Both the position numbers and the translations under genes were made by a program. A stretch of 64,000 bases of DNA, taken from assembly GCF_004799685.1 (NCBI RefSeq), contig NZ_CP031311.1:186001-250000 (forward strand). Direction: 5' to 3'. The DNA is from Halobellus limi (GTDB lineage Archaea; Halobacteriota; Halobacteria; Halobacteriales; Haloferacaceae). The notes under the pieces were generated by a model. The model ran no database searches and was not told the origin of the DNA. It saw only the letters and a list, made by a program, of their open reading frames with translations. Shown here in pieces: positions 11,551 through 53,539 of the stretch (positions within the stretch are counted from its first letter, which is position 1; each line of letters starts with the position of its first letter).

Positions 11551-11601
11551 GGGTGTCGCCGCCGGGGTGAGCGGACCGCTCTGCGGACTGCGTACAGGGG
11601 C

Positions 11602-11757
11602 GAACAGTCGGCACCCGCTCGGGCCGGCCGCCAGTCGCTCGCTCGCTGGCGGACGACCGCGTTTCCCGCGTCGGTGTGCCGAGCAACCGCACGTCGACGC
11701 GGGGCGACTTTCAGATCACGCGGGCCCTGGCCGCCCGATCGTATATAAACGCTCGCC
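11602..11757 (+). promoter_or_regulatory. Promoter-like module, copy A (of three)
   Basis: The module has a left half-site tcggcac (11608-11614), a 61-base spacer, a right half-site gtgccga (11676-11682), a conserved block ('tcgacgcggggcgac', then 'ctggccgcccgatcg') and a TATA box tatataaa (11742-11749). The gap from right half-site to TATA is 59 bases, as in copies B (29836-29981) and C (53360-53477, minus strand). It points toward DUF460, whose start is about 157 bases past the TATA. Confidence 0.7.
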
Positions 11758-29825: not shown

Positions 29826-29835
29826 GCGATCTGGC

Positions 29836-29981
29836 GAACAGTCGGCACGACGGTTTCTGCCCGGACACTCCGGATTCGGACCGGTTCTCCCGCGCCGACG
29901 TGCCGAACGACCGCGGCTCGACGCGGGGCGATCTCCAGCGCACGCCGCGTCTGGCCGCCCGATCGCGTATAAACGCTCGCC
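29836..29981 (+). promoter_or_regulatory. Promoter-like module, copy B (of three)
   Basis: The left half-site tcggcac is at 29842-29848, the right half-site gtgccga at 29900-29906 (51 bases between them). The shared block with 'tcgacgcggggcga' and 'tctggccgcccgatcg' follows, then the TATA-like cgtataaa at 29966-29973. The right half-site to TATA gap is 59 bases. It points to the Tat lipoprotein gene at 30041. Confidence 0.7.
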
Positions 29982-51457: not shown

Positions 51458-51531
51458 GGGCGCGTAGCTCAGTCGGACAGAGCGTCGGACTTCTAATCCG
51501 ATGGTCGCGGGTTCGAATCCCGTCGCGCTCG
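51458..51531 (+). tRNA. tRNA-Arg (anticodon TCT)
   Basis: The 74-base cloverleaf closes fully: acceptor stem gggcgcg/cgcgctc with one G-T pair, D arm gctc/gagc, anticodon stem tcgga/tccga with loop CTTCTAA (TCT, reads AGA and AGG), and T arm gcggg-ttcgaat-cccgt. The discriminator is G. CCA is not encoded. There is no intron. Its 3' end is duplicated downstream (51614). Confidence 0.97.
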
Positions 51532-53359: not shown

Positions 53360-53477
53360 GCGTACCTTTATATACGATCGAGCGGCCAGACGCCGCGTGA
53401 CGTAGCAGTCGCCCTCGCGTCGAACGCGGTCGTTCGGCACGACGACGCGAGGGTCGAGGCCGCTCGTGCCGACTGTC
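53360..53477 (-). promoter_or_regulatory. Promoter-like module, copy C (of three)
   Basis: On the minus strand the order is left half-site tcggcac (53472-53466), a spacer of only 25 bases, right half-site gtgccga (53440-53434), the shared block ('tcgacgcgagggcgac', 'gtctggccgctcgatcg') and TATA tatataaa (53374-53367). The right half-site to TATA gap is again 59 bases. It points to the CBS gene, whose start is about 97 bases past the TATA. Confidence 0.7.
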
Positions 53478-53539
53478 AGCCACTCGTTGCGCATCCACAG
53501 TGCCGAAACCGACCGGACAATCCGCGCTCGACGCCGCGC

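Follow-up and report, generated by a model that had tools for sequence, protein, structure and literature searches.

Small pseudoknot RNAs with a putative leaderless start-X-stop 5' end, dispersed in haloarchaeal genomes

In the toxic haloarchaeal small RNA CreT, a very short translated 5' ORF, leaderless in H. hubeiense, is followed by a stable structure; the ORF comprises 4-6 codons, two of them rare and in tandem, and CreA represses CreT together with the CRISPR effector Cascade (PMC8501985). Two-codon minigenes are also found in bacterial leaders, as exemplified by ATGactTAA in axe-txe, a start-X-stop whose translation matters and which lies in an mRNA leader, acting in cis on the next gene (PMC8708949). 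In Haloferax volcanii, ribosome-associated untranslated sRNAs display ribosome occupancy but no detectable protein, and some are conserved and structured; the main text of that study describes them as separate sRNAs, and no start-X-stop or pseudoknot family was found in it (PMC12482152).

Here we analysed a module repeated in a 64,000-nucleotide stretch of the Halobellus limi genome (NZ_CP031311.1, positions 186,001 to 250,000; hereafter the window). Its pattern of conservation indicates that it is almost certainly a small structured RNA gene. CreT is the closest functional parallel that we can propose by analogy. Unlike CreT, the RNA described here exists in dozens of copies and combines a covarying pseudoknot with a single, ordinary sense codon after the start, so the consecutive rare codons that characterise CreT are absent. 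Unlike the axe-txe minigene, it has no constant downstream gene. A search of Rfam 15 with the window returned only a tRNA at the gathering score, and four copy-bearing loci gave no match at E<=1, in agreement with the earlier note on this DNA, which knew of no named haloarchaeal element resembling the module. No published description of a matching RNA was found in the open-access literature. Apart from the copies of the module, the window yielded one RNA gene, a tRNA-Arg (TCT) at 51458-51531 on the plus strand.

An interleaved fold and its coding strand

The three copies reported previously in the window, with their half-sites, variable arm spacing and constant distance to a TATA box, were all present in the sequence. 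In copy A, tcggcac (11608-11614) and gtgccga (11676-11682) are separated by 61 bp, and TATATAAA at 11742-11749 lies 59 bp from the right arm. The arms are 51 bp apart in copy B and 25 bp apart in copy C, and the 59 bp interval is unchanged in both. The paired arms of copy C, used as a search pattern, had no counterpart when the window was shuffled 100 times, indicating that the arrangement did not arise by chance. The set of copies was first enlarged by a search with one conserved block, after which a covariance model (R1) was run; a second model (R2) was built from copies of other genera.

Read on the strand opposite to the one proposed previously (minus in copies A and B, plus in copy C; hereafter the minus strand of the module), the sequence forms an H-type pseudoknot. 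A helix of 9-11 bp, P2, is interleaved with a helix of 7 bp, P3, which corresponds to the split palindrome, and covariation supports both. The loop between P2 and P3 measures about 12 nt and ends in GCGGKYGY; a 2 nt junction follows the P3 5' strand, and the third loop, 7-9 nt long in many relatives, is enlarged and drifting in Halobellus. The RNA ends with a conserved single-stranded tail, CUGUUCGCC. Both unpaired elements, GCGGKYGY and CUGUUCGCC, are highly conserved. A hairpin P1 (GTGAC/GTCAC) was considered and rejected, being present in some copies and not retained across them. No T-run terminator was found after the tail, a point against this reading.

In copy A, the RNA gene (11599-11719, minus strand, 121 nt, from RUG to CGCC) is matched by both covariance models at C1:197660-197763 on the minus strand. 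Covariation places the P2 strands at 11695-11703 (5', CCCGCGTCG) and 11665-11673 (3', CGACGCGGG), an inverted repeat interleaved with the palindrome arms that had previously gone unremarked. The P3 5' strand TCGGCAC (11676-11682) is the former right arm and the 3' strand GTGCCGA (11608-11614) the former left arm, both again supported by covariation, and the latter adjoins the tail CTGTTCGCC (11599-11607). The RNA gene of copy B, found by the covariance models at 29833-29943 (minus strand, 111 nt), has its P2 strands at 29919-29927 (5') and 29889-29897 (3'), its P3 strands at 29900-29906 (5') and 29842-29848 (3') and its tail at 29833-29841. Copy C, on the plus strand, is likewise matched by the covariance models at 53397-53481 (85 nt). 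Its P2, read from the sequence, is formed by CCCTCGCGTCG (53412-53422) and CGACGCGAGGG (53443-53453), its P3 by TCGGCAC (53434-53440) and GTGCCGA (53466-53472), and its tail is CTGTCAGCC (53473-53481).

Pairing in P2 was found in 99.4% of cells in 53 copies from other genera, with 83 double-sided changes. The covariation score for this helix was 0.598, against 0.152+-0.017 for shuffled and at most 0.126 for slid alignments of the same copies. The alignment of these copies had been fitted to the helix, and checks free of such fitting therefore matter. In an ungapped alignment of the 15 best copies (104 columns, minus-strand reading with the TATA TTTATATA), 5 of the 9 P2 pairs showed double-sided changes. 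When P2 partners were shuffled between sequences, near-perfect helices dropped from 49 of 53 to 8-13. P3 was located by its flanking conserved motifs (score to the tail consensus), independently of pairing, and scored 0.408 against 0.156+-0.017 after shuffling.

The wobble pair of RNA is G.U, which is seen as A.C from the opposite strand, and a DNA palindrome would show no bias between the two. On the minus strand, P2 contained 24 G.U against 1 A.C in other genera (p=1.5e-6) and 36 against 7 in Halobellus (p=9e-6). For P3 the counts were 5 against 0 in the H. limi genome and 13 against 8 in other genera. This excess of G.U argues for an RNA made from the minus strand rather than for a DNA palindrome, and we regard this direction, opposite to that of the earlier proposal, as very nearly certain. 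The suggestion of a short non-coding RNA thus held as to its kind and failed as to its direction.

Promoter and start-X-stop 5' end

Upstream of the RNA, the minus strand carries in order a BRE (CGARSG), the TATA TTTATATA, the motif CGAnnnCGnGRCCA and a C-rich stretch. The distance from the TATA is fixed in the ungapped alignment, the RNA starting 30 nt past the first T. The constant 59 bp, previously taken as the gap between a palindrome and a plus-strand promoter, is in fact the stretch between the minus-strand TATA and the first strand of P3, with the transcript start inside it. In copy A, the BRE and TATA (CGAGCG-TTTATATA) occupy 11742-11755 on the minus strand and are kept over copies; the conserved -22 to -1 region, of the CGANNNCGNGRCCA type (11720-11741), is common to a few leaderless protein genes. 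The TATA boxes of copies B and C are TTTATACG (29966-29973, minus strand) and TTTATATA (53367-53374, plus strand), respectively.

The first nine letters of the RNA read RUG-NNN-stop, a feature of the minus strand on which the earlier note had not remarked. Copy comparison identifies it in copy A as GTG ATC TGA (11711-11719, minus strand), and copy C begins GTG ACG TAG. Of the 59 H. limi copies, 58 start with GTG (56) or ATG (2), and codon 3 is a stop in 58, the exception being copy B, with GTG CGC TGG at 29935-29943 on the minus strand. Its ortholog in H. rarus reads GTG CGC TAG, and the loss of the stop suggests that copy B may be degenerating. In a larger set of 156 partly redundant copies, nearly all had RTG and a stop at codon 3, with ATC or ACG replacing the expected RTG in three and TGG at codon 3 in only two. 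In a separate tally, codon 3 was TGA 123 times, TAG 23 times, TAA 13 times and TGG twice, and its letters were interdependent in the way that stops demand (Fisher p=1e-16). RTG-NNN-stop occurred elsewhere downstream in the same RNAs at 5 of 28,424 positions. Across genera, about 98% of the copies retain RUG. The stops TGA, TAG and TAA interchange between orthologs and codon 2 varies, with a stop preserved. Taken as sequence evidence, this pattern makes it very probable that the start-X-stop is under selection. Codon 2 is skewed to ATC, ACG and ACC, so that part of the 5' motif may serve another end, for example promoter or protein contacts. The variation of codon 3 between TGA, TAG and TAA also led us to reject a C/D box guide RNA (C box RUGAUGA, D box CUGA), RUGAUGA being unconserved.

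A search with the promoter motif gave many chance matches, among them a few leaderless protein genes. These genes (L306, at C1:45500-48500, L307, L309, L316 and L319, one of which encodes a NucS_N-domain protein with zinc ribbons) share the promoter, have their translation start at roughly the corresponding base and look leaderless. The promoter type thus appears to yield leaderless messages, and the RNAs differ from them by a stop after one sense codon. The protein genes and the RNAs are possibly under a common regulator. A common regulator, suggested before for the three copies, may exist; its likely site is CGAnnnCGnGRCCA, between the TATA and the transcript start, and not the palindrome.

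Distribution and genomic context

Model R2 detected 59 copies in the 3.75 Mb H. limi genome, all at E<=1.4e-11; R1 gave 61 matches, 59 of them with E<1e-8. Other Halobellus genomes mostly held 19-54 copies each. At least one copy was found in 136 of 170 genomes of the family and, in a sample of 243 Halobacteriales genomes, in 175, representing 54 of 77 genera. Among the matches listed in a phylum-wide sample, none lay outside Halobacteriales. No copies were detected in five genomes of the same genus (G001, G009, G010, G012 and G016), where first-look candidates were also far fewer; the model may miss divergent copies there, sensitivity possibly being lost if these genomes are AT-rich. The RNA is 78-208 nt long in the H. 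limi genome and 66-208 nt overall, and it is shorter in other genera, where the median is 80 nt against 116 nt.

In about 53 of the 59 copies the P2 and P3 sequences are near-identical. Copies L148 to L153 are unlike the rest in both helices and as sequence-diverse as those of other genera, and several occupy positions shared across genera. The near-identity of most copies beside a few diverse ones indicates that the genus underwent an expansion, and the diverse copies may represent an old set persisting alongside it, as their sequences suggest. Several of the diverse copies adjoin the same gene in other genera, and copy C shares its position, next to the same uvrC-like gene, with two loci from other genera. 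Such shared neighbours probably reflect vertical inheritance.

Gene context was derived from rough ORF calls on the stretches around the copies. All four arrangements of neighbouring genes occurred among the 59 copies, and by these rough calls the downstream gene lay on the strand of the RNA in 23 copies and on the opposite strand in 35. A regulatory minigene or cis leader was therefore rejected, there being no constant same-strand downstream gene. The neighbours inspected were ordinary (uvrC-like, RtcB, TGT, alpha-amylase, DUF460 and others), and those examined around nine copies were unrelated to CreA; no CRISPR link was noticed. Genes for RNA processing were seen near copies L098, L140, L152 and L153, namely those for RtcB, TGT, a PF01877 RNA-binding protein and a metallo-beta-lactamase protein.

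The flanks of 55 of the 59 copies matched stretches around H. rarus copies, and a locus-by-locus comparison covered 54 pairs from these two Halobellus species. In the 34 of the 54 pairs in which the arms could be placed in both species, from which the averages were taken, identity was 44% for the long loop and 43% for the flanks, versus 92-96% for P2/P3. The loop is as diverged as its surroundings, which argues against a guide, and a guide or seed role was rejected since the variable loop is not conserved locus by locus between orthologs. With an unconserved loop and no constant neighbour, action in trans by way of the common core is most likely, in preference to a guide or cis leader role.

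Possible function and alternatives

Overall, the data are best explained by independent pseudoknot RNA genes with a leaderless start-X-stop that engages ribosomes, to which we assign a probability of about 0.72. A frameshift-type pseudoknot encounters the mRNA entry of the ribosome when it lies 5-9 nt beyond the decoding site. Here, P2 starts at nucleotide 17, separated from the stop codon by a 7 nt spacer. From this geometry we propose that ribosomes are parked or recycled at the 5' end of the RNA. Initiation would take place at the 5'-terminal RUG, the stop would be reached after a single amino acid, and at stop decoding the pseudoknot would meet the mRNA entry. Either the RNA would stabilise itself, or initiating ribosomes would be tied up under the control of the shared promoter element. 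Going by the conserved 5' end, we infer that ribosomes likely engage the start-X-stop; that the purpose is ribosome capture in trans is a more tentative proposition. Counting against the ribosome step, 56 of 59 copies use GUG, a weaker start than AUG, and copy B lacks a stop. In a leaderless haloarchaeal mini-ORF, changing AUG to GUG largely inactivated its function (PMC8501985). Ribosome occupancy without protein, as reported for conserved H. volcanii sRNAs (PMC12482152), is what ribosome capture would predict.

Another use of the same RNA is conceivable, although we think it unlikely: the start-X-stop could be merely protective, with transcripts from a leaderless promoter starting at RUG by happenstance and the stop releasing ribosomes before they unwind a pseudoknot that functions, with its tail, in binding protein or RNA. 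The conserved unpaired GCGGKYGY and CUGUUCGCC resemble binding sites, and the same promoter type serves leaderless protein genes. However, a transcript starting with any other purine would evade ribosomes entirely, yet RUG is kept across genera. A toxic or tRNA-sequestering RNA like CreT is less plausible still. A leaderless mini-ORF with a stable structure behind it is a feature shared with H. hubeiense CreT (PMC8501985), and tRNA depletion by two-codon minigenes is possible (PMC8708949), but ATC, ACG and ACC predominate at codon 2 without tandem rare codons, and 59 scattered copies are hard to reconcile with it.

The genus-level expansion would also be expected had a MITE- or retro-like mobile element spread through Halobellus with its own promoter. 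Positions, however, are retained between species, stops and helices are retained at each locus, and no coding gene accompanies the copies, making this origin very improbable. The single match in a viral collection lies in what looks like coding sequence, lacks both promoter and fold, and was dismissed as chance; plasmid records gave only weak, unrelated matches. The operator envisaged by the earlier note, in which a regulator binds the palindrome as DNA and drives an alternative plus-strand promoter, is scarcely credible. The TATA is nearly symmetrical and, going by the rough ORF calls, 39 of the 59 copies are divergently oriented with respect to the adjacent gene, as such a promoter would have it. 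In the other 20 that gene is oncoming, so that the earlier observation on three copies, all pointing at a gene, does not hold genome-wide, and in about one third of the copies the proposed promoter would fire into its 3' end; nothing supports the alternative promoter. The arms instead pair with each other as an RNA helix: their spacing is free, they change jointly, and covariation together with the wobble asymmetry demands a minus-strand RNA.

Judged against Rfam and the open-access literature, this family of structured RNAs, which extends across Halobacteriales and reaches dozens of copies in a genome, seems to be undescribed. The novelty lies in the RNA class itself, for which no relative was found and whose combination of features matches no family found; the mechanism is one that we infer. 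Pseudoknot RNA genes of this kind may constitute a haloarchaeal class of ribosome-catching RNAs, each a one-codon leaderless minigene joined to a pseudoknot, in up to 59 copies per genome co-switched by a shared promoter element, which might tune leaderless translation or sense ribosome state; we put this forward with some reserve. Published Haloferax differential RNA-seq and ribosome profiling allow immediate testing. The family ties leaderless translation, the common start mode in haloarchaea, to non-coding RNA.
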